DNA of 44,954 nt from positions 1-44,954 of the forward strand of contig NZ_FOXB01000015.1 of NCBI RefSeq assembly GCF_900115615.1, given 5' to 3'. Every line of letters begins with the position of its first letter. Within the stretch, counting starts at the first letter, position 1. Positions 21,047 through 40,714 of the stretch are shown in pieces. The notes under the pieces are model-generated. The model was not told the DNA's origin. It saw only the letters and a list, made by a program, of their open reading frames with translations, and searched no databases. Source of the stretch: Hydrogenimonas thermophila (GTDB lineage Bacteria > Campylobacterota > Campylobacteria > Campylobacterales > Hydrogenimonadaceae). The position numbers and the translations under genes are program-made.

Positions 21047-22552
21047 TTATGCCTCCTTTTTGGCTAAATATTGAGCGTAAATTCCGTATCCCATTACAGT
21101 AATCATAGGAAACAAAGATGCAAATGCAATTAGACCAAACCCATCTATAAGAGGATTTCTCCCCTCAATATTTTCTGCTAATCCCAATCCCAATGCTGCA
21201 ACAAGTGGAACTGTTACGGTTGAAGTAGTTACTCCACCGCTATCATAAGCAATAGGAATAATATACCTTGGTGCAAAATATGTCATAGCAATAACTACAA
21301 TATAACCTACAATTATATAGTAATGAATAGGATCTCCAACAACTATGCGAAAAGCACCCAAAGCAATTCCAATGGCTACACCAACTGCTACAGCTACTCT
21401 AAGAAATGTCTGGTTAATCCTTCCTTCACTAACCTCCTCAGCTTTTATGGCAATAGCCAACAATGCAGGTTCAGCCATTGTTGTTGAAAATCCAATAAGA
21501 AAACCAAAAAGATAGATTAGTAAATCATTCTTCATAGAAGTCAATTGAAATGCAATTGTCTCACCAATAGGGAAAAGCCCCATTTCTAACCCAAGAATAA
21601 ATGCATAAAGACCTAAAATGACTAAAACTATACCTACAATAATTTTATGTAGATGAGCAACAGCTTTTTTAATAACAGCATACTGAAAGAAGAAAATAAC
21701 AGCTAAAATTGGTAAAACATCTTTGATAACTGCTAAAAGATCCCAAAAAATATTTGATAGATTAAAACTGCTCTCCTCTTTTATAGCTTTAGATACAGCA
21801 TCTTCAACAACAGCAATTGCAGCTTCAGCACTCTCTGGTACCAATGCATAGACAATAATTCCGTAAAGCTGCACAAAAATCATTGGAGTTAAAGAAGCAA
21901 AAGCTATAAGACCAAACCCATCTATTGCAGGATTTCGTCCTTTAATAGAGGTGGCCAAACCAATTCCCAATGCTGCTACAAGAGGTACTGTTACAGTTGA
22001 AGTTGTTACCCCACCACTATCATAAGCTAAACCAATGATCTCTTTTGGTGCAAAGAATGTAATACCAACTACAAGAATATAACCTGCTATAATATAATAA
22101 TGAATAGGATGACCAGTTAGAATACGAAATACTCCAAGAGCAATTGCAAACCCAACTGAAAATGCAACAGTCATACGTAGAAAAAATGCATCAATCTTTC
22201 CTGCACTTATGGCAGCAGCTTTATCTGCTATGGCAATTAAAGCAGGTTCTGCTACAGTTGTGGAAAAGCCTATAGTAAATGCAAAAAGTAAAAGCCAAAA
22301 AACTGATCCCTTTTTTGCAAAATCGATAGCTAAATTTTCACCAATAGGAAATATTCCTAGTTCAAGTCCACGAATAAAAAGAGCAAGACCAACAGCTACA
22401 ATAATAAGACCAATAATAATAGAAGATAAGTTTTCAGGCATTGTCTGTACAATTGCTGCCTGAAAAAAAGTAACAACAATTATGATGGGAACTAAATCTT
22501 TAAATGAATTTTTTAAATCAGTTAAAAATATTTTAGCCGATTCCATAAACAT
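21047..22552 (-). CDS. DUF1538 membrane protein, internally duplicated
   Basis: 501 residues, about 12-14 membrane segments in two homologous halves (about 1-245 and 260-501). Each half has a [11 protein letters not shown]-type motif, [32 protein letters not shown] and [20 protein letters not shown]1538 proteins have been reported to act as two-component Na+(Li+,K+)/H+ antiporters (UmpA/UmpB type). Here both units are joined in one chain, so an antiporter role is a fair inference. The ATG follows GGGGGAT. It leads an operon with PII-like, CBS and asparaginase-domain genes. The 138-bp gap upstream shows no clear terminator. Confidence 0.87.
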
Positions 22553-26088: not shown

Positions 26089-27825
26089 CTATATAATAAA
26101 ATCATGAAAGTCTAATATTTCAGGTTCAGGCTTACCAAAGTAATAGCCCTGAGCATAATCTACACCTAATAACAATATAGTATCTAAAACTTCTTTACTA
26201 TGTACATATTCTGCTATAGTTTTAATTCCACTTAAATTTGCATAATAAACAATTGTTTTGACAATATTTTGAGATTCAATATTTACATCAATGTCTTTAA
26301 TAAAACTACCATCTATTTTTACAAAATCAACATCTAATTTTAAAAGACTTGTAAAATTTGAATTTTCTGTTCCAAAATCATCAATTGCAAGTCTAAATCC
26401 TGCTTTTTTAAAATCTTTTAATTGTTGCACAATATCATAACTATAATTATTATTAATATTTTCTAAGATTTCTAAAATTACATAAGAACTTTTAACACTA
26501 TATAATTCACACATTTTATTCAAAAAATCTAATAAATACTCTTCTTTTAAATCATCTTCAGTAATATTTATAGAAAATTGTAAGTCTGTATTTGCCATAA
26601 TAGCAAAAGACTTCTCTATTATTTGCTTTGTTATTTCAGGCAAAATACCTGCCTTTTTAGCTGGTTCAATAAATAAATAAGGTGAATCTACACTCTCATT
26701 TTCAACTATACGTGCTAAACATTCATACTTTTCAATTTTATTGCTTTTAAGATTAATTATTGGTTGAAAAAAAGGTTGATATAAATTAGAATCTAATGCT
26801 ATTTTTGCCTTTTGAGTCCACTCTATAACTTTTTTACGTTTCAATTCCAAAATAAATTCAGGTTTAAATATCTCAATAGAATTTTTATGTGTCTCTCTTG
26901 CTTTTTTTATTGCCAAATGAGCATTTCCAAAAGGAGGTTTTTTCAAGGTTTTATCTATAGGAATAATTCCAATAGTAACAGTTATACAAAGGGATAAACC
27001 ATTAACAAGAAAATAGTTATTGTAAATTGAGTTATGAATATTTTCCGCAATACTTTTAGCTTCACTTAGTGTAAACTCCTTTATTAAAATAGCAAACTCA
27101 TCACCATTAATTCTATACAATTTATTAGAATCCAATAATTTACGTAAAAAAGAGGCAAACTCAATTAATAATAAATCACCAACTTCAAATCCATAATATA
27201 AATTTATTTGGTCAAAATTATCAATATTTAAAAAAATCATTACATCTGGTGAAAACTCTTTAAAATCTATATTTAACTGCTCTTTATTAGGTAATCTGGT
27301 TAAATGATCTGTTCTTAATTGATTTATTAATGATTCAGTTTGTTGCTTTATCTGATCGACTTGTTTTGCAACTAACTCTTCCAAATTTAAACGATACTTA
27401 GTATTTTCTTTCTCCATAATTACCAATTTTGCAATTTTATATAAAGTATTAATAATCTGGTCAGATTTAATTGGTTTTAAAATATATCCATCTATTCCCA
27501 TAAATACAGTTTCTAAAATTATTTGACTATCTCCATGCGCACTTTGAGCAACTATCTTTTGTTCAGGTTTAATCTTTCTAATCTCTTCTATCATTTTAAG
27601 CCCATCCATAATAGGCATTCTTAAATCAGTTAGAACTATATCAGGGTACTCTTTTTCAAAGATGTTTAGTCCTTCTTGTCCATTTTCAGCAATATAAACA
27701 TTTTTAAATAATGTTTTTAATAACCCATAAATACTTTCTCTTGCAGCTTCCTCATCATCAACAAATAAGATTGATAAATTTTCAGTATAACTTTTCAATT
27801 TCTTTGTTATATTTTTATCTAGCAT
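26089..27825 (-). CDS. Response regulator REC-GGDEF-EAL
   Basis: 578 residues. The receiver domain has phospho-acceptor D67 (VLTDLRMP) and switch Lys in LKPI. After a coiled linker comes a GGDEF domain with a changed signature NGDEF (240-244), then EAL with ECL (368-370). Other EAL residues are present (ILEILE, AIDDFGTENS, KIDGSF, AEYVH, QGYYFGKP). It likely hydrolyses c-di-GMP, with GGDEF inactive or GTP-sensing. The start overlaps the cheB stop by 11 bp, so it is a likely output of the same chemosensory operon. It is closely related in layout to the product of 40727-42391. Confidence 0.88.
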   Translation of the reverse strand: MLDKNITKKLKSYTENLSILFVDDEEAARESIYGLLKTLFKNVYIAENGQEGLNIFEKEYPDIVLTDLRMPIMDGLKMIEEIRKIKPEQKIVAQSAHGDSQIILETVFMGIDGYILKPIKSDQIINTLYKIAKLVIMEKENTKYRLNLEELVAKQVDQIKQQTESLINQLRTDHLTRLPNKEQLNIDFKEFSPDVMIFLNIDNFDQINLYYGFEVGDLLLIEFASFLRKLLDSNKLYRINGDEFAILIKEFTLSEAKSIAENIHNSIYNNYFLVNGLSLCITVTIGIIPIDKTLKKPPFGNAHLAIKKARETHKNSIEIFKPEFILELKRKKVIEWTQKAKIALDSNLYQPFFQPIINLKSNKIEKYECLARIVENESVDSPYLFIEPAKKAGILPEITKQIIEKSFAIMANTDLQFSINITEDDLKEEYLLDFLNKMCELYSVKSSYVILEILENINNNYSYDIVQQLKDFKKAGFRLAIDDFGTENSNFTSLLKLDVDFVKIDGSFIKDIDVNIESQNIVKTIVYYANLSGIKTIAEYVHSKEVLDTILLLGVDYAQGYYFGKPEPEILDFHDFII

Positions 27826-28876
27826 TTTTTATAACCTCAATAATAGCGTCAATATCAAGACTTTTAGTTACTCCCCCAAGCTTTACAGCTTCTTTTGGCA
27901 TACCATAAACTACACAACTTTTTTCATCTTCAGCATATGTTTTTGCTCCATTATCAAACATTTCTTTTAAACCATGGGCACCATCATCACCCATTCCAGT
28001 TAAAATTATTCCAATAGCATTTTCTCCTACCTCATTTGCTATTGATCGAAACATTACATCTACACTTGGTCGATGTCTGCAAACTCTTGGACCATCTTTA
28101 AGTATTATTAAGTAACCTTTAATATCACGTTTTATAAGTAAATGTTTGTCACCTGGAGCAATATATATATGAGAATGCTCAACTTTTTCACCATTTTCAG
28201 CTTCTTTAACTTCTACGTTACTAATTGAATTTAAACGTTTTGCTAAAGAAGCTGTAAATTTTGGTGGCATATGTTGAGTTATCACTATTGGAGCACATTT
28301 TGACGGCAAAGCTTTAACTATTTTTTCGAGTACTTGTACTCCACCAGTTGATGAACCTATAGCAATAATACTTTTAAAGTCTTTTGTAGATTTAGTAATA
28401 TTGTTAATTTTTTGTAAAGATGTCTTTGTTTTAATAATTGAATTATCAGATGTACTATTTCTTCTATTTAATTTTGCTTTTGATGCAGTTATTATTGTAG
28501 ATATTAATGATTCTTTTGTATTTTCTAGAAAACTTTTTATGCCTAATTTTGGTTTAGCTATAATTTCTACTGCTCCCGCTTGTAAAGCTTCAATAGCTTT
28601 ATAATTACCATCTTCAACCAATGAAGAACACATTATAACTGGAATAGGATGCTCTTTCATTATTTTTTTTAAAAAAGTTATCCCATCCATTCGAGGCATT
28701 TCAATATCTAAAATCATTACATCTGGGTAACCCACCAATTTAAATTTATTCATAGCAAAAATTGGATCTGATGCTACTCCTAAGACTTCAATATCAGTTT
28801 CATTTTCTACTAGTTTTATTAATGTTTGTCTCATAACAGCTGAATCATCAACAATAAAAAGTTTAATAGGAGGCAT
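27815..28876 (-). CDS. cheB: Chemotaxis response regulator methylesterase CheB
   Basis: 353 residues. Removes methyl groups from (and deamidates) chemoreceptors. The receiver has D57 in ILDIEMP; the linker is followed by the methylesterase with GSSTGG (S177), ITQHMPP (H203) and GMGDDGAHG (D297/298). Length and layout are normal. It lies 29 bp after the receiver-X gene and overlaps the REC-GGDEF-EAL gene. Its counterpart CheR is two genes upstream. Confidence 0.94.
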   Translation of the reverse strand: MPPIKLFIVDDSAVMRQTLIKLVENETDIEVLGVASDPIFAMNKFKLVGYPDVMILDIEMPRMDGITFLKKIMKEHPIPVIMCSSLVEDGNYKAIEALQAGAVEIIAKPKLGIKSFLENTKESLISTIITASKAKLNRRNSTSDNSIIKTKTSLQKINNITKSTKDFKSIIAIGSSTGGVQVLEKIVKALPSKCAPIVITQHMPPKFTASLAKRLNSISNVEVKEAENGEKVEHSHIYIAPGDKHLLIKRDIKGYLIILKDGPRVCRHRPSVDVMFRSIANEVGENAIGIILTGMGDDGAHGLKEMFDNGAKTYAEDEKSCVVYGMPKEAVKLGGVTKSLDIDAIIEVIKNAR

Positions 28877-28905: not shown

Positions 28906-29676
28906 TTATAGTTCATATGGAATTCTTATAGTTAATCCATTTTTTTTCCATCTTAACTCCATTGAATTATTTACATTTGAAAAAAAATGTTTAGAAGATT
29001 GAACAAATATATCATTCATTATACTTATATAAATTGCACTTTCTGACTCTTCTAACATTATTTCAAATGCTTCTGTTTTATCTTTTATAGACTGATATGT
29101 TTTAATTAAATTAATAATTACTTCTTTAGCTAAAATATTTACTCCATTTATAAACTTTTTTTTATTTGTAATATATTCACCCAATGTATATAAATCCTCT
29201 TCTTGATAAATAGTAAAAATGACATAAAAGTTCTTTATTTTGTCATCATTATATGGGTTTAACGTATCCCTTTTTATTATTGGTGTTTTAATCATATCGC
29301 TATTTACAAGTCTTATTATAAGAGATAGTCTTGCAACAATGTCTACCGTACTAAAAGGCTTGGAAATATAAAAATCAATACCACTTTCATATATTTTCCC
29401 AATAAGTTCATCACCACTTAACCCTGTAATTGCAGCAATAAAAATATTTTTTTTATTTACATCTTTTCTTAATTTCTTAGTTAACTCAAAACCATCCATA
29501 TTTGGCATCATCATGTCAGTTAACAAAATATCTACTTGTTGTTCTTGAATAATTTTATAAGCTATTTCCCCATCTTCTGCTTCAAATATATCTATATTTG
29601 AATCTATTTTATGCTTTATAATTTTAGTTAAAGTTTTTCTTACAGCATTATCATCTTCTGCTACAACAATGGTCAT
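28906..29676 (-). CDS. Response regulator with unrecognised C-terminal domain (short form)
   Basis: 256 residues. The receiver domain has D54 (LLTDMMMP) and KPF switch Lys. The C-terminal about 115 residues are not a known DNA-binding or enzyme domain to me; they include YVIFTIYQEEDLYTLGEYI and end NGLTIRIPYEL. They resemble the middle of the longer regulator at 36048-37262, so the two form a paralogous pair in one operon. It could be a phosphate sink or a protein-binding output. AGGAG lies before the ATG. Confidence 0.85.
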   Translation of the reverse strand: MTIVVAEDDNAVRKTLTKIIKHKIDSNIDIFEAEDGEIAYKIIQEQQVDILLTDMMMPNMDGFELTKKLRKDVNKKNIFIAAITGLSGDELIGKIYESGIDFYISKPFSTVDIVARLSLIIRLVNSDMIKTPIIKRDTLNPYNDDKIKNFYVIFTIYQEEDLYTLGEYITNKKKFINGVNILAKEVIINLIKTYQSIKDKTEAFEIMLEESESAIYISIMNDIFVQSSKHFFSNVNNSMELRWKKNGLTIRIPYEL

Positions 29677-29687
29677 ATTATCTCCTG

Positions 29688-30482
29688 CTATTTTTTATAA
29701 ATTGTAGGTGCAATTTGAACTAAATCATCAGTAATGTTAAATAAAGACTCAGAATGTCCAACAAAAAAATATCCACCAGGTTTAAGTCTCTCTAAAACAT
29801 TCTCAACAACTTTCTTTTTGGTAGGAATATCAAAATAAATCAAAACATTTCGTAAAAATATTAAATCAAAATCGCCAATATTTGGAGAAATAGAATTAAT
29901 TAGATTTATCTTTTGAAATAAAATATTTTGTTTTAACTTATTAACTATAGTAAACTGACCATTCATATTACCAATACCTTTTAAACAATATTTTTTTAAA
30001 TAATTTTCTGGTATTCTTTCAGCATATTTAATATTGTAAACACCTTTACGTGCCTGATTTAATACTTCATTATTTATATCTGTTGCTAAAATTTCATATT
30101 TCTTAATACTTGAAGGAAGAAACTCCTCAGCTAACATAGCAATTGTATATGCTTCTAATCCTATAGAAGCAGCAGCGCTCCAAATACGTATAGATGTTCT
30201 TACATTAGGAAATATATTTTTTTTTAAAAAATCAAAATGTCTGTTTTCTCTAAAAAAACTTGTTTCATTAGTTGTAATTCTATTAATCATTAATTGTAAT
30301 TCTTGTTCATCTGAAATTACTAATCTATAATAGTCGCTAAAATTTTCAAGCTTACACTCTTTAAGTCTTTTTTGCAATCTTGCTTCTAATAAAAAAATTT
30401 TTTCTTTTTTTATCTCTATTCCAGAATTGTCAAAGATTAATTTCTTAAATTTCTCAAACTCTACAAAGTTTATATGTATCAT
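29688..30482 (-). CDS. cheR: CheR-type receptor methyltransferase
   Basis: 264 residues. SAM-dependent methylation of chemoreceptor glutamates. Motifs: ITTNETSFFRE, SAM loop IRIWSAAASIGLEAYTIAML (diverged from ACSTGEEPYS), ILATDINNEVLNQA, FLRNVLIYFD and LKPGGYFFVGHSE. It lies 9 bp after cheV and 11 bp before the receiver-X gene, in the cheB-containing operon. It has better-kept motifs than the orphan copy at 9565-10416. Confidence 0.93.
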   Translation of the reverse strand: MIHINFVEFEKFKKLIFDNSGIEIKKEKIFLLEARLQKRLKECKLENFSDYYRLVISDEQELQLMINRITTNETSFFRENRHFDFLKKNIFPNVRTSIRIWSAAASIGLEAYTIAMLAEEFLPSSIKKYEILATDINNEVLNQARKGVYNIKYAERIPENYLKKYCLKGIGNMNGQFTIVNKLKQNILFQKINLINSISPNIGDFDLIFLRNVLIYFDIPTKKKVVENVLERLKPGGYFFVGHSESLFNITDDLVQIAPTIYKK

Positions 30483-30491
30483 TTTGCCACT

Positions 30492-31451
30492 TTAATCTCT
30501 TGCATATTTCAAAATGACTTTTTTAATTGCCTCTAAATCTAATTTTTCAAGAACTTCTTTAGCTCCAAGTTTTTCACACGATTGAATAATTGCCTTATTG
30601 GCCATATTCGTATTTACAACAATAGGAATATTTTGTAATTTTTCATCAGATTTACATTTTCTTATAAGCTCCATGCCCCCCATTACTGGCATTTCTATAT
30701 CTGTTAAAATTAATCCTATTTTATCAATATCACAATGTTGGAGTGCCTCAAAAAGTAATTTTCCATTTGCATATGCCTCATATTCTATTTGCATATTATT
30801 TAAGAGTTTTTCAATCATTTTCTGAATAAGATTTGAATCTTCAGCAATTAAAACTTTCTTTTCTATATTCTGTAAAACTAAACTTTTAGCTAAAATTTCA
30901 TCTTGATCTTCAAATATTTTAGGTAAGATATCTCGTATAAAAAGATCACTATTAAAAACTTTGCAAAGAACTTCTTTACCATTAATTTTTAAATCTGTAA
31001 TATAAGAAACTTTTTCATCTTTTATAGAATCATCAAACATTTGAGATGGTTCGATATTAATTACACCATATACGCTTTTTATTACCATTGCAACTTTTGC
31101 ACCGGCATAGTTGCAAACAATTGCAAGTTCATACTCATCTTTTGCTAACTTTTCCAATCCAAGCCAATTATCAAAATTGACAATATTCATCATTTCATCT
31201 CTAATTTTAGCAGTACCTTCTATTAGTCCATCTGGATCAGAAGTATCTACCTTAAATAAATCTTTATACACTACTAATTCTTCAACTTTAGCCACGTTTA
31301 TTGCATAGTACTCATCTTTTCCATTCTGAAAAATAACATATTGACTTGTAATATCAGCATTGCTGGTAACTAACCTAATTAACTCATCATCTACCTCATA
31401 TTTATTTAAAGTCTTATCATCATGTTTACTAATATTACTTCTATCTATCAT
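30492..31451 (-). CDS. cheV: CheV: CheW-like adaptor with receiver domain
   Basis: 319 residues. The CheW-like domain is about 35-180 (YVIFQNGKDEYYAINVAKVEEL, GLIEGTAKIRDEMMNIVNF). The receiver is about 199-319 with D251 (LILTDIEMP) and a changed C-terminal Lys region (EVLEKLD). CheV links receptors to CheA and may tune adaptation. The ATG overlaps the cheW stop as ATGA, so translation is coupled. CheV is frequent in Campylobacterota. Confidence 0.93.
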   Translation of the reverse strand: MIDRSNISKHDDKTLNKYEVDDELIRLVTSNADITSQYVIFQNGKDEYYAINVAKVEELVVYKDLFKVDTSDPDGLIEGTAKIRDEMMNIVNFDNWLGLEKLAKDEYELAIVCNYAGAKVAMVIKSVYGVINIEPSQMFDDSIKDEKVSYITDLKINGKEVLCKVFNSDLFIRDILPKIFEDQDEILAKSLVLQNIEKKVLIAEDSNLIQKMIEKLLNNMQIEYEAYANGKLLFEALQHCDIDKIGLILTDIEMPVMGGMELIRKCKSDEKLQNIPIVVNTNMANKAIIQSCEKLGAKEVLEKLDLEAIKKVILKYARD

Positions 31452-31927
31452 AATATTTTTCCTGTATCAATTTTGGAAAGTACTTCTATATCTAATATAG
31501 CATTATGGTCTAAAATTGGTACAAATTTATTTTCAATCTTAGCAATATTTTTTATAAAAATTTTTGGTATTTTAGTTCCAAAAACTGGTACATCTTCCAA
31601 ATCTTTTGACTCTAATTCATAAACCTCATTAACCAAATCAACAACTATTCCCATCTCTTGTGGTCTATTTACATTATTTTTTATAATTATAATTGAAGAC
31701 CATTTATTAATTTTAGAGTTTTCTCTAATTCCAATCCTTATTGAAAGATCAATAACAGGAATAACGTTACCTCTTATATTAGTTACACCCAATACTGAAG
31801 AAGTCATCAATGGAACTTTTGTTACTCTTGTGTAACTAATTATCTCTTTTATCTCTTCTGCATCTATTGCAAAAACATCCTTACCAATATAAAAAATAAG
31901 GTATTGATTTTTATCACTATTTTCCAT
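31448..31927 (-). CDS. cheW: CheW coupling protein
   Basis: About 159 residues. A single CheW domain (YLIFYIGKDVFAIDAEEIKEII, SSVLGVTNIRGNVIPVIDL, GIVVDLVNEVYEL) couples receptors to the CheA kinase. The start is put at ATG 31927, after AAGGGC. An in-frame extension to 31978 lies in the tail of the duplicated MCP segment and is not part of the protein. The stop overlaps the cheV start. Confidence 0.93.
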   Translation of the reverse strand: MENSDKNQYLIFYIGKDVFAIDAEEIKEIISYTRVTKVPLMTSSVLGVTNIRGNVIPVIDLSIRIGIRENSKINKWSSIIIIKNNVNRPQEMGIVVDLVNEVYELESKDLEDVPVFGTKIPKIFIKNIAKIENKFVPILDHNAILDIEVLSKIDTGKIL

Positions 31928-31937
31928 TATATAGCCC

Positions 31938-34055
31938 TTAAAAGCTAACAAAGTTTTGACTATTTTCTCTATTGTCAAAAGTTTTCTTTACAGAATCCTC
32001 TTTCTCTTCACTATTATCTGTAACTAAACTCTCTTTTTTTTCATCATCATCTTTTTTATCACTCTTAAAAAAGCTTACCATTTCTTTAAGTTTCTCTACT
32101 TGTGAATTTGTCTCTTCACTTGAACTTGCTAACTCTTCACTTGCTGCTGCATTCTGTTGGGCTGTCTGATCCAACTCTGTTATCGCTGTTGCTATCTGGC
32201 TTATTCCTAACTCCTGTTCTGAACTCGCACTTGATATCTCCTCGATCAAGTCTGATATCTTCTTTATATTTGGTACTATCTCATTAATCAACTCACCAGC
32301 TCTTTGACTAACCTCTACACTATCTGATGTTATCTGACTTATCTCCTGTGCAGCTGTCTGACTTCTCTCTGCCAGTTTTCTTACTTCACTTGCTACTACT
32401 GCAAAACCCTTGCCATGCTCTCCTGCACGTGCCGCCTCTATTGCAGCATTCAGTGCCAACAAATTAGTCTGATATGCTATATCCTCTATTATGCTTATCC
32501 TTGATGCCACATTCTTCATTGCCTCTGCTGTCTCATTTACAGACTTCCCACCATCTTCTGCCATTGTTACTGTATTTAGTGTTATCTCATTTGTCTTCTT
32601 TGCATTATCTGCATTCTGACTTATCGATCCACTCATCTCTTCTATTGCAGCACTCATCTCTTCCAAGCTACTCGCCTGTTCTGTCGCACCCGCTGATAGA
32701 CTATGTGCTGCTGATTTAACCTCACTACTAGCCACCGCTATTCGTTCTGTTGAACTCTTCACATTAGATATTAACTTCTCCATCGTCTCTAAAATATTAT
32801 TCACAACCTCTGGTATTACTTGAAACTCTCTATCTATCCCCTTTACTTCTACTCTAGATCTTATATCTCCATCTTTAATTCTTCTATTTACTTCCTCAAT
32901 CTTTTTAACTAAATTAGTTATCTTATTGATTATATTATGCTTAATAACAAAAGACATAATAAATAGTAGTATAACAGCAACAATAATAGAAATTATTATA
33001 ATATTTATAATCGCTTCTTTAACAGTTTTTAAACTCTGTTCTTGCATAACTTGAACTTGATGTTCAATATCATCAATATATGTACCTGTACCAATTACCC
33101 AATTCCAAGGTTTAAACAATCTTACATTAGACATTTTACGAGCAGTTTTTTCTGTTGCAGGATTATAAAAAGAGTATTCAAAAATAGCCTCATCTTTTGA
33201 AGAGCTTTTCAAAGCATTCACTCCCAATGCTACAAACGGTACTTTTGGATTATCTTTAAAGTTTTTACCAGTTAACTCTTTCTTTATTGGGTGCATTACC
33301 ATATTGTAATCCATATCATTTATCCAGAAGTACCCATTTTTACCATATCTGATCTCTGAGATAGCTTTTAAAGCCTCTTTTTGCATCTTCTGAGTTATAT
33401 CATCAATATATGCCCCTGTACCGATGATCCATCCAAACGGTTTAAATACCCGCACAATTGAAGATTTATAGACATATTTTTTTGATTTTGGCGAATAGAA
33501 ACTATAGGATATATACCCCACATTTTTCCCACTCTTCTTCAATTCATCAACGCCAAGTGCTACAAATGGCACTTTAGGATTATTTTTAAAATATTTACCG
33601 GTCAACTTTTTTTTGATTGGATGCATAACCATTTTATAGTTAAAATCATTTATCCAAAAATATCCAGCTTCACCATATCTTGTAGCATTAACAGTAGCTA
33701 TTATTAATTTTTTCAACTCTTTCTTAGATAGCTTATCCTTATACATTTCATATTGTTTCTCAATAATACTAAATAAAAAATCAGATTGTTCAGTAATATA
33801 CTCTTTAACTTCATTTTCTAATTTATCTTTACTTGTTCTCTCATAATATGATTTTACAATATTCATAGCTATACTTGTATAGTTACTAAGCTCTTCTTTT
33901 CTAGCAGTATATGTATCTTCTCTATATATTTTGATATTTTCTTTTGACATATTATTTATTGAAATTAAACTTATAATTATTAAAACCAAAGATGTAAAAA
34001 AAACTGCGGCTAATAATATTAACTGTAACTTTAATTTTATAGACATTTTTTTCAT
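31938..34055 (-). CDS. Chemoreceptor (MCP) with tandem Cache sensor domains
   Basis: About 705 residues. There is a membrane segment near 9-32, then two very similar Cache units in tandem: both have [30 protein letters not shown] and IGTG.YIDDI. A second membrane segment at about 355-380 is followed by HAMP and the signalling hairpin ([22 protein letters not shown]). It ends NSQNFVSF, without an obvious CheR-tether pentapeptide. The start is ATG 34055 after AGGAGGAA. The last 983 bp are almost identical to the next MCP gene upstream, while the sensors differ, so only the input has been exchanged. Confidence 0.92.
31939..32921 (-). repeat. 983-bp near-identical repeat, copy 1 (MCP 3' end)
   Basis: Covers HAMP, signalling domain and stop codon of the tandem-Cache MCP. 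It aligns without gaps to 34067-35049 (offset 2128) with about 20 mismatches by eye, nearly all silent. Confidence 0.9.
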
Positions 34056-34065
34056 AATCTTCCTC

Positions 34066-36027
34066 CTAAAAGCTAACAAAGTTTTGACTATTTTCTCTAT
34101 TGTCAAAAGTTTTCTTTACAGAATCCTCTTTCTCTTCACTATTATCTGTAACTAAACTCTCTTTTTTTTCATCATCATCTTTTTTATCACTCTTAAAAAA
34201 GCTTACCATTTCTTTAAGTTTCTCTACTTGTGAATTTGTCTCTTCACTTGAACTTGCTAACTCTTCACTTGCTGCTGCATTCTGTTGGGCTGTCTGATCC
34301 AACTCTGTTATCGCTGTTGCTATCTGGCTTATTCCTAACTCTTGTTCTGAACTAGCACTTGATATCTCTTCAATTAAATCTGATATCTTCTTTATATTTG
34401 GTACTATCTCATTAATCAACTCACCGGCTCTTTGACTAACCTCTACACTATCTGATGTTATCTGACTTATCTCCTGTGCAGCTGTTTGACTTCTCTCTGC
34501 CAGTTTTCTTACTTCACTTGCTACTACTGCAAAACCCTTGCCATGCTCTCCTGCACGTGCCGCCTCTATTGCAGCATTTAGTGCCAATAAATTTGTCTGA
34601 TAGGCTATATCCTCTATTATGCTTATCCTTGATGCCACATTCCTCATTGCCTCTGCTGTCTCATTTACAGACTTTCCACCATCTTCAGCCATTGTTACTG
34701 TATTTAGTGTTATCTCATTTGTCCTCTTTGCATTATCTGCATTCTGACTTATCGATCCACTCATCTCTTCTATTGCAGCACTCATCTCTTCCAAGCTACT
34801 CGCCTGTTCTGTCGCACCCGCTGATAGACTATGTGCTGCTGATTTAACCTCACTACTAGCCACCGCTATTCGTTCTGTTGAACTCTTCACATTAGATATT
34901 AACTTCTCCATCGTCTCTAAAATATTATTCACAACCTCTGGTATTACTTGAAACTCTCTATCTATCCCCTTTACTTCTACTCTAGATCTTATATCTCCAT
35001 CTTTAATTCTTCTATTTACTTCTTCTATCTTTTTAACTAAATTAGTTATATTAGAGATAAATTTATGAAAAATTAATGTCATCAATATAGTTATAACAAT
35101 ACTGAGAACTGCAAATATTCCAATTTGCTTAAACAGAGATTCCTTACTGTGGTCTGCTACACTATTAATATAATTAAGTTTTTTTCCAATAAATGCATAG
35201 CCAACTTTTTCTCCATTAAAATCTTCTAATGGCAAAGAGATATAAAAGTAATCTTTTGTAATATTATATTTGTTACTTTGAGATATAAATTTTTCGTTTT
35301 TTAATTGAGTATAAAAAGTTGAATCATATAAGTTATCATCTACAGCTATAACAAATTTATCCATTAATTCTTTATTATTTTCTAACTTTGAGGCAATATT
35401 TAAGAACTTTTTATCAACAGTAATTATGACTGCTGTTTTTATTTTTTTTAAATCTTTAATAATAGAATTTAATTCTAGTATAAACTCAATACTTCCATAA
35501 TATTTATTATCATTTATAATTGGAGCAACTCCTCTGATTGATAACCCAACTTTTCCTACCTCAATGCAAGAAATTGCCTTTTTATGATTTTTAACAGCTA
35601 CAATAGAGTTACGAAATGAACTTAAATCATCACCACTCTTTTTACTCCAAGATCTTAAAAATGAATGTATATCTTTTGTATGTATATGAATCTTTACATT
35701 TTTATACTTTGTTGATTTTTTATATCTATTAATCAAACTTTTTAAAGTTTTATATGCCTCTACTTTATTATTATTTTTTAAGGCATTAATAATTTTACTA
35801 TTTTCTGACAGTGTTATTGCATTTGTTATTGCAATCTTTTTTTCTTCATTTATCTTTTGTTTAAATATATTTATTAAATCATTTGAAACTTGATTATATA
35901 ACTGATTTTCAATATTTTCTATTGATGAAAATAAACTAATTAATACAACTATAAAACTAATTGTTATTAAGAATACTAGTTGAATAAGAATACGTTTTGA
36001 GATAGACATTTTGTTATAATTTAACAT
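34066..36027 (-). CDS. Chemoreceptor (MCP) with double-Cache-like sensor
   Basis: 653 residues. A membrane segment at about 14-36 is followed by a periplasmic region about 40-310 with a dCache-like pattern ([61 protein letters not shown]). A second membrane segment lies about 315-335, then HAMP and a signalling hairpin that differs from its neighbour by only two Lys/Arg swaps. The sensor is unrelated to the tandem Cache of that neighbour. ATG follows AAGGATT. It is second in the operon, 20 bp after the receiver-X gene. Confidence 0.92.
34067..35049 (-). repeat. 983-bp near-identical repeat, copy 2 (MCP 3' end)
   Basis: Partner of 31939-32921. Similarity stops sharply at the HAMP/membrane boundary and just after the stop codon, as expected from a recent duplication or ongoing gene conversion. 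Confidence 0.9.
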
Positions 36028-36047: not shown

Positions 36048-37262
36048 CTAATTTTGAATAATTTTCTTACACTGCTCTAAAAGTTCTATATCCATAAAAT
36101 GAATATCATTTACATCTTTATTTTTAAATATAGATTTTAACCATTTTTCAAACAAAATAATAAAATCATTTATATTTCTTATTATGTTTTTTTGTTTCTC
36201 TCTTTCCATTGCATCAAAATCTTTTAAATAACTATATACATCTTTTACTGCTTCTGCAAGGTGACCAAATTCTGCAAGATGATTTAGTAAATGAAAGCAA
36301 TTTTCAAAAAACTCAGAACTTTCATAAATCAGATCTGCACTCACTTCATTTTTATCATTCAAAAGATACAGGTAAGCTTCTTTTGCTTCATTTACATCAT
36401 CAATATAGTAATCAATATCTTCAGATACAATTGTCATAAAATCAATTGCTTTAACTTGTTCATAAATCGTTTTGATTGTCTCTTTATTATCTTCTTCTCT
36501 AATTAAATTTAAACGAATCGTAAAACAATCATCTTTAAATTTAATATCTTTATATTCTGATGATTTAATGATTTTTTCTGCTGCTTCTGTACAAAATTTA
36601 TCTTTCACAGTCAAATAAGCAAAATTCTTTGAATACTCTAATAGAATTTTAAACTTTGGAGATTTATTTTCGCGAGATAGAAATCTATATATTTTTACAA
36701 ATTCAACAATAATATCTTTTAAAGAGTCTGATGCAGATACAAGATCTTCTTGAGAAAAATGTTTCCATAATAAAAATAGGTCTGCTTCCTTCTGCATATT
36801 AAAAATTGTAATACAATTCTGTAAATAGTAGTCATTAAAAAGGTTTTCAACATCTTTTTGAGGTAGGATTGTTTGATATTTGTCTTTTTTAATAAACTGA
36901 ATTATAAACTTTAATCTAGCAACAATATCGTCTATATGAAAAGGTTTTGCTATGTAAAAATCTGCACCACTAGCATAAATCTTTTCTATCTGTTCTTCTC
37001 CTCCTAATCCCGTAATAGCTGCTATAAATATATTTTTTGTTTTATTAGAATTTTTTACTCTACTAATTAGTTCAAATCCATTCATATTTGGCATCATTAT
37101 ATCAGTTAATAAAATATCAACACGTTCATGTTGTATTAAATCTAAAGCTTTTTTCCCATCTTCTGCTTCTATAATTTTAATATCTGCCCCTATTTTGTTT
37201 TCAATGATACTTTTTAAAGTATCCCTAAGTTTTATTTCATCATCTACAATCATTATATTCAT
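36048..37262 (-). CDS. Response regulator with unrecognised C-terminal domain (long form)
   Basis: 404 residues. The receiver has D54 (LLTDIMMP) and KPF. The middle region about 130-255 resembles the C-terminal part of the shorter regulator at 28906-29676 ([14 protein letters not shown] matches AIYISIMNDIFVQS by position; both end in a TIR(L/I) strand). A further helical region about 265-404 is unique to this protein, with a run of acidic and aromatic residues. No HTH or enzyme motif is recognised. It is the first gene of the minus-strand chemosensory operon, with SD GAGGAG. Confidence 0.85.
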
Positions 37263-38414: not shown

Positions 38415-38714
38415 ATGAAAGTTTTTACAGATGAAGGTCAATGTTTTATTGATTTAGAACATTCATTAACAATTAAAGATGTCAGTACTTTACATATTAA
38501 ACTGAGTGCTACAAATATAAAAGAAATAAATGAATTTTTTATTCATGGCATGGATTTAAAAGAGTTTGATACAGCTGGTCTTCAAATTTTGATAGCTATA
38601 AAAAAGTATGCAGATAAAAATAATAAAGAATTTCAAATGTCAGTTGGAAAAAAAGAAAGAGAATTGATCAAATTTTATGAAATGGATGAGTATTTTAAAG
38701 GGGCAATTGTATGA
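38415..38714 (+). CDS. STAS-domain protein
   Basis: 99 residues, a single STAS domain. The usual phosphorylatable Ser position (DSxGL) is Thr here: FDTAGLQ with T53. In anti-sigma-antagonist relatives, a kinase modifies this residue and switches partner binding. GGAGG lies before the ATG, and the stop overlaps cheA as ATGA. That coupling suggests it acts with CheA, perhaps as an assembly or localisation partner. Confidence 0.85.
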   Translation: MKVFTDEGQCFIDLEHSLTIKDVSTLHIKLSATNIKEINEFFIHGMDLKEFDTAGLQILIAIKKYADKNNKEFQMSVGKKERELIKFYEMDEYFKGAIV

Positions 38715-40714
38715 ACGCTGAATTTATAAGTATGTTAGATGAATATAAAGCAGAGAATGATGAACTTCTTCAAAATATGGAAGATGCGCTTATGCAGATT
38801 CAAGAAGAAGGCATGAATGATGAAAATATAAATGCTGTTTTTAGAGCTGCTCATACAATTAAAGGCAGTTCGGGAATGTTTGGTATTGATTATATCGTCA
38901 AATTCACACATGTTGCTGAAAATTTATTAGACAAAATTCGCAATAATAAAATTCAAATTAATGATGAAATTATTGATACACTGTTATCTTGTAAAGATCA
39001 CATACAAACTTTAGTTGATTTTGTAGTCGATAATCCAGATAATGAACCGTCTGATGATATTACACAAAAAAGTAACAATCTCATAGAGATACTTACCAAA
39101 TACCTCGATAATAAAAATGAAAAAGAAAAAAATACAGCACAAAATGAAAATATTACCAATAATAATACAGTAGATAAATCTAAAGATAAAACTATTTATA
39201 AAATTAAAATAGATTTTAAAGAAGAGACTTTCAATCATGGATTCGATCTATATTCATTTATAAATTATTTAAATAATTTAGGAGAAATAGCTTCTTTTAA
39301 AACAATAACTACAAAAGTTCCAACAATAGATTCCATTAACCCAACAAAATGTTATTTAAGTTTTGAAATTGAATTTGCAAGTACAGAATCAGAATCAAAA
39401 ATAAAAGATGTATTTGAACTTGCAAAAGATGATTGTCAAATAGAAATTATAAACCCAAACAAAGTTACAGAAAAAAAAGATAAAAAAACAGATGAAATAC
39501 AAAAAAAGATTTCTAGCAAAAAAATAGCTGTTAATAAAAGTTCCAATTCTATAAGAGTAGATGCTGAAAAAGTTGATAGTTTAATAAACCTAATCGGTGA
39601 GATGGTAATATCTAATGCAGTTGTAATGCAAAAAGCAAAAAATAATGGCAATTCCGATCTCATTGAATCAATTTCTAATGTCTCAAGAATGCTTGAAGAG
39701 TTACGCGAAAATGCAATGCAAATAAGAATGATACCAATAGGCGATACATTTAAAAAGTATAAACGAATAGTACATGATTTAGCAAACAAATTAGGCAAAC
39801 AGATAGAACTTAGTATGAGTGGGTATGAAACTGAACTTGACAAAACAGTTATAGAAAAAATTTCCGATCCACTTGTTCATCTAATCCGAAATTCTGTAGA
39901 CCATGGCATAGAAACACCAGATGAAAGAGTAAAGAACGGTAAAAATCCCAAAGGGACAATTGAGCTAAACGCATATCATGATGCAGGTTCCATTGTCATA
40001 GAAATAAAAGATGATGGAAAAGGACTAGATGCAGAAGTTATTTTACAAAAAGGTATAGAAAAGGGGTTAGTAGAGAACCCAGAGTTAATGACTCAAAAAG
40101 AGATATTTGAACTAATTTTACAACCTGGTTTTTCAACTGCTAAAAAAGTAAGCGACATCTCAGGTCGAGGTGTTGGGATGGATGTTGTAAAAAGAAATAT
40201 TACAGATCTTAGAGGAGAGATTGAAATATTTAGTGAAAAAGGACATGGTACAAGAATTTTAATACGACTCCCTTTGACATTGGCAATCATAGATGGATTT
40301 TTAACCAAGGTAAGTAATACCTATTTTGTAATACCTTTAGACATGGTAATAGAGTGCATAGAACTTACAAAAGCAATTAAAGAAGAGATGCGAGGAAACA
40401 ACTACATAAATTTAAGAGGAAAAGTTTTACCTGTATTGGATCTTAATCAATATTTTAAAATTGATAAAAAGAATCCAACTTCAAAAGATAATGTTGTAGT
40501 AGTCAATTATGCTGGAAAATATATGGGGATATTAGTACAGGAACTTCTAGGAGAACTTCAAACAGTTATAAAACCTCTGGGGCAAGTATTTAAAAACTTA
40601 AATAGTTTAAGCGGATCAACAATACTAGGAAATGGTGAAGTAGCTCTAATATTAGATATTCCATCTCTTTTGAAAGATATGGAAAAAAGACCACTTAATA
40701 ACTGTGCCGCATAA
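38711..40714 (+). CDS. cheA: Chemotaxis histidine kinase CheA
   Basis: 667 residues. Phosphorylates the receivers of the pathway. The N-terminal Hpt domain has AHTIKGSSG (H48). A long variable linker (about 110-275) replaces a clear P2. Dimerisation is about 280-345, then the ATPase with N box LVHLIRNSVDHG, DDGKG and GRGVGMD, then the CheW-like C-terminus about 520-660. No receiver is fused, unlike many epsilon CheA proteins. It is the only CheA seen, so it probably serves all receivers and MCPs in this window. Confidence 0.95.
   Translation: MNAEFISMLDEYKAENDELLQNMEDALMQIQEEGMNDENINAVFRAAHTIKGSSGMFGIDYIVKFTHVAENLLDKIRNNKIQINDEIIDTLLSCKDHIQTLVDFVVDNPDNEPSDDITQKSNNLIEILTKYLDNKNEKEKNTAQNENITNNNTVDKSKDKTIYKIKIDFKEETFNHGFDLYSFINYLNNLGEIASFKTITTKVPTIDSINPTKCYLSFEIEFASTESESKIKDVFELAKDDCQIEIINPNKVTEKKDKKTDEIQKKISSKKIAVNKSSNSIRVDAEKVDSLINLIGEMVISNAVVMQKAKNNGNSDLIESISNVSRMLEELRENAMQIRMIPIGDTFKKYKRIVHDLANKLGKQIELSMSGYETELDKTVIEKISDPLVHLIRNSVDHGIETPDERVKNGKNPKGTIELNAYHDAGSIVIEIKDDGKGLDAEVILQKGIEKGLVENPELMTQKEIFELILQPGFSTAKKVSDISGRGVGMDVVKRNITDLRGEIEIFSEKGHGTRILIRLPLTLAIIDGFLTKVSNTYFVIPLDMVIECIELTKAIKEEMRGNNYINLRGKVLPVLDLNQYFKIDKKNPTSKDNVVVVNYAGKYMGILVQELLGELQTVIKPLGQVFKNLNSLSGSTILGNGEVALILDIPSLLKDMEKRPLNNCAA

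Follow-up and report, generated by a model that had tools for sequence, protein, structure and literature searches.

Two adjacent chemoreceptor genes of Hydrogenimonas thermophila carry the same signalling half behind two unrelated sensors. The genes, here called MCP-A and MCP-B, lie in the window, the whole 44,954-nucleotide stretch of DNA that was analysed, which is an entire contig (C15; NZ_FOXB01000015.1) of a 2.44 Mb genome in 92 contigs rated 100% complete. They probably constitute a tandem pair in which a duplicated signalling half became joined to a second sensor, after which gene conversion evened out the ends of the two copies and left an older middle between them. Such a pair would offer a clean snapshot of a new sensor being plugged into an existing chemosensory pathway, with the output half and the adaptation tether kept in step.

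Realignment of positions 31939–32921 (copy A) with 34067–35049 (copy B), both on the minus strand, gives a gapless match of 983 bases with 18 mismatches, or 98.2% identity. This bears out the coordinates and the 2128-base spacing given in a preliminary description of this DNA, as well as its account of an approximately 98% identical, gapless repeat whose differences are nearly all silent: 16 of the 18 are silent and the remaining two exchange Lys and Arg (codons at 32597 and 32516). The shared half runs from a HAMP-like start through the MCPsignal domain recognized by Pfam and a linker to an NFVSF tail and the stop codon up to its second base. Its limits are as sharp as had been described, but identity does not extend just past the stop codon; it ends at the second base of that codon, which is TAA in MCP-A and TAG in MCP-B. 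At the other end, the limit of identity lies 378 residues from the N-terminus of MCP-A and 326 from that of MCP-B, a few residues past TM2 as placed by eye. The earlier assignment of this start to a HAMP domain is a tentative one. Pfam scores HAMP at E 0.077 and 0.0075 in the two proteins, both below the cut-off, while HAMP_2 precedes MCPsignal in homologues.

No third copy of the signalling half was found in the genome, where the next best match is 76% over 143 bases. Among the 190 pairs that can be formed from its 20 MCP ORFs, the window pair alone shares a near-identical long stretch; the other long matches join the whole-gene paralogues L009 and L016 (72%) and the sensor of MCP-A with that of a receptor on contig C63 (73%). 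Similarity is confined to a sharply bounded tract between unrelated flanks, as in a gene-converted pair. Judged from these alignments, the repeat is a product of neither chance nor ordinary paralogy.

MCP-A (31938–34055, minus strand, 705 aa) and MCP-B (34066–36027, minus strand, 653 aa) both place a sensor domain ahead of the signalling half, and MCPsignal (PF00015) is above the Pfam cut-off in each. The sensor of MCP-A with its TM1 and TM2 (32922–34055) is a dCache_2 domain with two sCache_2 stretches (E 7.9e-70), and that of MCP-B, also with TM1 and TM2 (35050–36027), is a dCache_3 domain (E 2.5e-26). These assignments, together with a blastp comparison of the two N-terminal halves that returned no match at E 1e-3, uphold the earlier view that the sensors are unrelated. 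In comparisons with solved structures, sensor A resembles the Cache sensors of MCPs (5g4y and others) and the shared half matches Tsr-type structures; sensor B has no credible match there, and no ligand can be named for either sensor from these matches. An MCP on contig C3 of the same genome matches residues 4–561 of MCP-B at 37%. Just 5' of the MCP-A ATG (34055), an AGGAGG motif overlaps the MCP-B stop codon.

The sensor of MCP-A resembles that of the C63 receptor at about 70% amino acid identity over the Cache region and 75% DNA identity over about 1 kb. This receptor, which belongs to another signalling class, matches the MCP-A sensor with 577 bits and its signalling half with 65 bits, and the similarity drops at TM2, adjoining the start of the repeat. 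MCP-A reads as a chimera, since a relative of its sensor sits on another signalling class elsewhere in the genome. A protein of genome G025 (contig C58) also matches sensor A at about 70% over the Cache region, and the roughly equal distance of sensor A to it and to the C63 sensor indicates no recent donor; dating the fusion through sensor A was given up on the same grounds. The G025 protein itself (L242, 2551–3708) is 64% identical over residues 1–378 and stops just after TM2. It was considered as a broken MCP and rejected as such, no MCP signalling sequence being recognizable on visual inspection of the three frames read downstream.

The pair belongs to an accessory chemosensory cluster, where it takes up the MCP slot. 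On the minus strand, the receiver-domain protein REC1 (36048–37262; Pfam Response_reg) lies upstream of MCP-B, and the two receptors are followed by CheW (31448–31927; Pfam CheW), a CheV-like protein combining CheW and receiver domains (30492–31451; Pfam), CheR (29688–30482; Pfam), a further receiver-domain protein, REC2 (28906–29676; Pfam Response_reg), and a CheB-like protein (27815–28876), labelled by eye from its translation and with homologues at the same place in other clusters. The CheA of the cluster (38711–40714, plus strand; Pfam Hpt, H-kinase_dim, HATPase_c and CheW) lies in a divergent operon. REC2 and REC1, which flank the MCP–CheW–CheV–CheR block, have similar starts by eye.

Both receptors end in the pentapeptide NFVSF (31941–31955 on the minus strand in MCP-A), which fits the xZxxZ rule (Z = F, W or Y) given for CheR/CheB-binding pentapeptides in PMC7390727. 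Among 25 MCPs from the same slot in other clusters, a motif of this type is terminal in 19 and set one residue in for 4, while 2 end in EFSRL; an xZxxZ tail is present in none of the 15 other MCP ORFs listed from this genome. MCP-A and MCP-B would have in common their CheA/CheW-binding tip, their methylation helices and their NFVSF tether. With an identical tip and the tether in both receptors, the two sensors probably signal through a single CheA and rely for adaptation on the CheR and CheB encoded nearby. The receptors are predicted to join one array that integrates two inputs into one output, with the same CheA driven and the same CheR and CheB adapting for both.

The cluster (CheA, MCP, CheW, CheV, CheR and CheB, in slightly varying order) is patchily distributed. 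Of 398 genomes in the order, 23, this one included, have a match to its CheA at E 1e-120 or better, and none of the 17 other members of the genus has one at E 1e-120. All 22 of the other slots that are bounded by cluster genes on both sides hold a single MCP; in three further slots (L065, L066 and L230) the contig ends just upstream, and one MCP is seen in each. A Pfam Cache domain at E 0.001 was detected in none of the 24 MCPs scanned from these 25 slots (L230 was left out, and L065 is clipped by the contig end). These receptors carry instead HAMP arrays, four-helix, PAS-like or Tll0287-like parts, or nothing recognized. A two-MCP slot and Cache sensors thus set this genome apart from the others whose clusters were read. 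The domain shuffling proposed earlier draws support from these single MCPs without a recognized Cache domain and from the approximately 70% match of sensor A on a receptor of another class.

The divergence between the two copies is unevenly spread. The value of dS is 0 over 31941–32213, 0.185 over the middle block at 32214–32597 (minus strand) and 0.030 over 32598–32921, and 16 of the 18 differences fall in the middle block, a pattern based on few differences. The two longest identical runs measure 275 and 298 bases, and their combined length beats nearly all random placings (P about 0.0003), in a permutation that put all 18 differences on third positions, though two are second-position changes. 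Both the dS by block and the clustering of mismatches, small as the counts are, have the silent sites homogenized in tracts. This patchiness fits repeated homogenizing recombination better than one plain duplication. The signalling half would have been duplicated and joined just after TM2 to a second sensor; later homologous recombination between the copies would then have re-equalized at least both ends of the repeat by gene conversion, and the middle block would represent the surviving older divergence. Gene conversion had been raised in the preliminary description, and the blocky dS, the clustering and the concerted evolution in genus g8 presented below argue for it without proving it. Its direction and timing cannot be polarized, since no close relative with the same MCP pair was found.

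A single recent partial duplication, with no later conversion and with the differences being plain mutations accumulated since, would produce the high overall identity and the sharp ends equally well. This history is unlikely given that 16 of the 18 differences lie within 384 of the 983 bases, with the contrast in dS between middle and ends and the permutation result pointing the same way. That one copy is an assembly artefact, either a collapse or a mis-joined duplicate, is very improbable. The identical runs are longer than many short reads, and the assembly that contains the window is in 92 contigs; against this, the copies differ at 18 positions and have two different sensors, stop codons and downstream contexts, and analogous pairs are present in genomes of 1 and 2 contigs (G042 and G277). 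Next to no credence attaches to an old duplication whose likeness was kept by purifying selection on the protein only. The signalling tip is indeed strongly conserved across all MCPs, but synonymous sites and the C-terminal linker are likewise identical or nearly so, and matches to the half in the other MCPs of this genome are short and reach at most 78%.

The base composition of the shared half adds a feature that a simple model of duplication and conversion does not account for. Its GC3s is 0.271 in copy A and 0.243 in copy B, roughly double the level of the che genes of the cluster (0.08–0.15), and the 3' ends of the 15 other MCP ORFs listed from this genome (0.095–0.191) lie below both copies. 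Relative to the 39 other ORFs of the genome that were examined (maximum 0.254), copy A is above the range and copy B inside it. The raised values may stem from importation of the half or from biased conversion. Under the former, the half would be a module imported from a donor of higher GC3 and then spread over both sensors, a scenario compatible with duplication followed by conversion. It agrees with the excess of the half over the rest of its cluster, set beside 25 single-copy slot MCPs whose 3' ends agree with the clusters around them (mean difference −0.016, s.d. 0.035). No donor was found, however, and the nearest homologue, on a Sulfurimonas contig, has 58% protein identity and a GC3s of 0.12, which leaves importation rather unlikely. 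As for biased conversion, GC3 of the shared half is above that of the gene's own N-terminal part in 17 of 18 pairs of adjacent receptors with shared halves, a count made with no control and with the second L081 pair left out of 19. In a controlled test, 15 of 18 paired loci were positive versus 86 of 143 unpaired ones (Mann-Whitney P 0.047, Fisher P 0.07), the window pair having been de-duplicated out of the paired set, so that its copies may lie in the unpaired one. GC-biased gene conversion is not claimed as a general cause of raised GC3, since the excess is weak once controlled.

Recombination between the copies had been predicted to delete 2128 bp, and that size is right. The product would retain the MCP-B sensor with one hybrid signalling half and lose the MCP-A sensor, which would equal the one-MCP arrangement of the other clusters. 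In a more elaborate and decidedly doubtful extension, the slot would be a live site of sensor exchange, in which a foreign, GC-richer, homogenizing repeat lets the cluster gain and lose sensors, passing between one- and two-MCP states by recombination within the population.

Related receptors elsewhere frequently combine adjacency with common signalling halves. Adjacent same-strand MCP pairs, defined by a gap of up to 3 kb and complete ORFs of at least 330 aa, were surveyed in loci fetched for resemblance to the window MCPs rather than at random. In 19 of 24 distinct pairs of this kind, the two genes have 540 bases or more in common at an identity of 73% or higher (range 73.6% to 99.8%), and in 5 they do not; overlapping pairs, two in each of L162, L140 and L081, are among the 19. 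Some sharing pairs are N-terminally similar as well (L160 at 34% aa; the L162 pairs at 27% and 38%). Given this frequency, catalogues that compare whole proteins can place such genes wrongly, and assemblies made from short reads merit checking at such loci. The window pair ranks second in identity, behind a pair in a Colwellia MAG (L108, 2365–4413 and 5074–7086). Like the window genes, the Colwellia receptors are adjacent, on the same strand, of different sensor families (4HB, a four-helix domain, and NIT) and equipped with the same tail, and 855 bases of their 3' halves contain 2 differences (99.8%). They differ from the window pair in lineage, in their higher identity and in a 661-base intergenic gap.

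In genus g8 of the same order, genome G042 has adjacent MCPs with sensors X and Y whose signalling DNA is 95% identical. Between G042 and G277, orthologous signalling DNA is 83–85% identical for X and 74% for Y, with the sensors at 72% (X) and 80% (Y) aa; in this genus, then, paralogues resemble each other more than orthologues do, and these alignments make visible a concerted evolution of the signalling halves. A third G042 receptor, at another locus and with a different sensor, is 99% identical to X in its signalling part. The g8 receptors resemble the window pair in that signalling halves are alike within a genome across different sensors, and differ from it in their many copies, mosaic ends and a tail motif that is not always kept.

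The same inner half on different outer sensors is a known bacterial route to a new sense on an existing pathway. In Campylobacter jejuni, paralogous chemoreceptors of the same bacterial order, Tlp2, Tlp3 and Tlp4, are reported in PMC9769880 to combine identical signalling domains with sensors that share only about 30% identity. The conserved C-terminal halves of Tlp genes are proposed, in PMC6433261, as homologous recombination sites that flip a chromosomal segment. A signalling half shared by differing sensors is therefore already known from C. jejuni, and by analogy the window pair represents a further case. The group A Tlps of that species bound an invertible element of approximately 92 kb, whereas the window genes are adjacent, in direct orientation and within an accessory che cluster; Tlp2, Tlp3 and Tlp4 all carry dCache_1, while the window sensors are dCache_2 and dCache_3. 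A literature search combining methyl-accepting chemotaxis with concerted evolution returned no paper, and in the excerpts returned for the combination with gene conversion that phrase concerned pseudogenes.

Several other features were seen alongside these. In G277, two MCP genes approximately 370 kb apart (L275, 2414–4735, and L276, 3994–6318) have 3 differences in their first 1805 bases and then diverge toward the 3' end; this mosaic is arranged the other way round from the window pair. L278 of the same genome (9375–17597) contains a tandem duplication, at 97.6%, of a two-MCP block of approximately 4 kb, and one of its genes, 2070 bases long, is unchanged between the copies. Within the window, 21080–21379 and 21857–22156 form a 74% internal repeat in the ORF at 21047–22552, whose protein has two similar halves, and a frame at the start of the contig (54–1179), labelled transposase-like by eye, is split into two overlapping ORFs.
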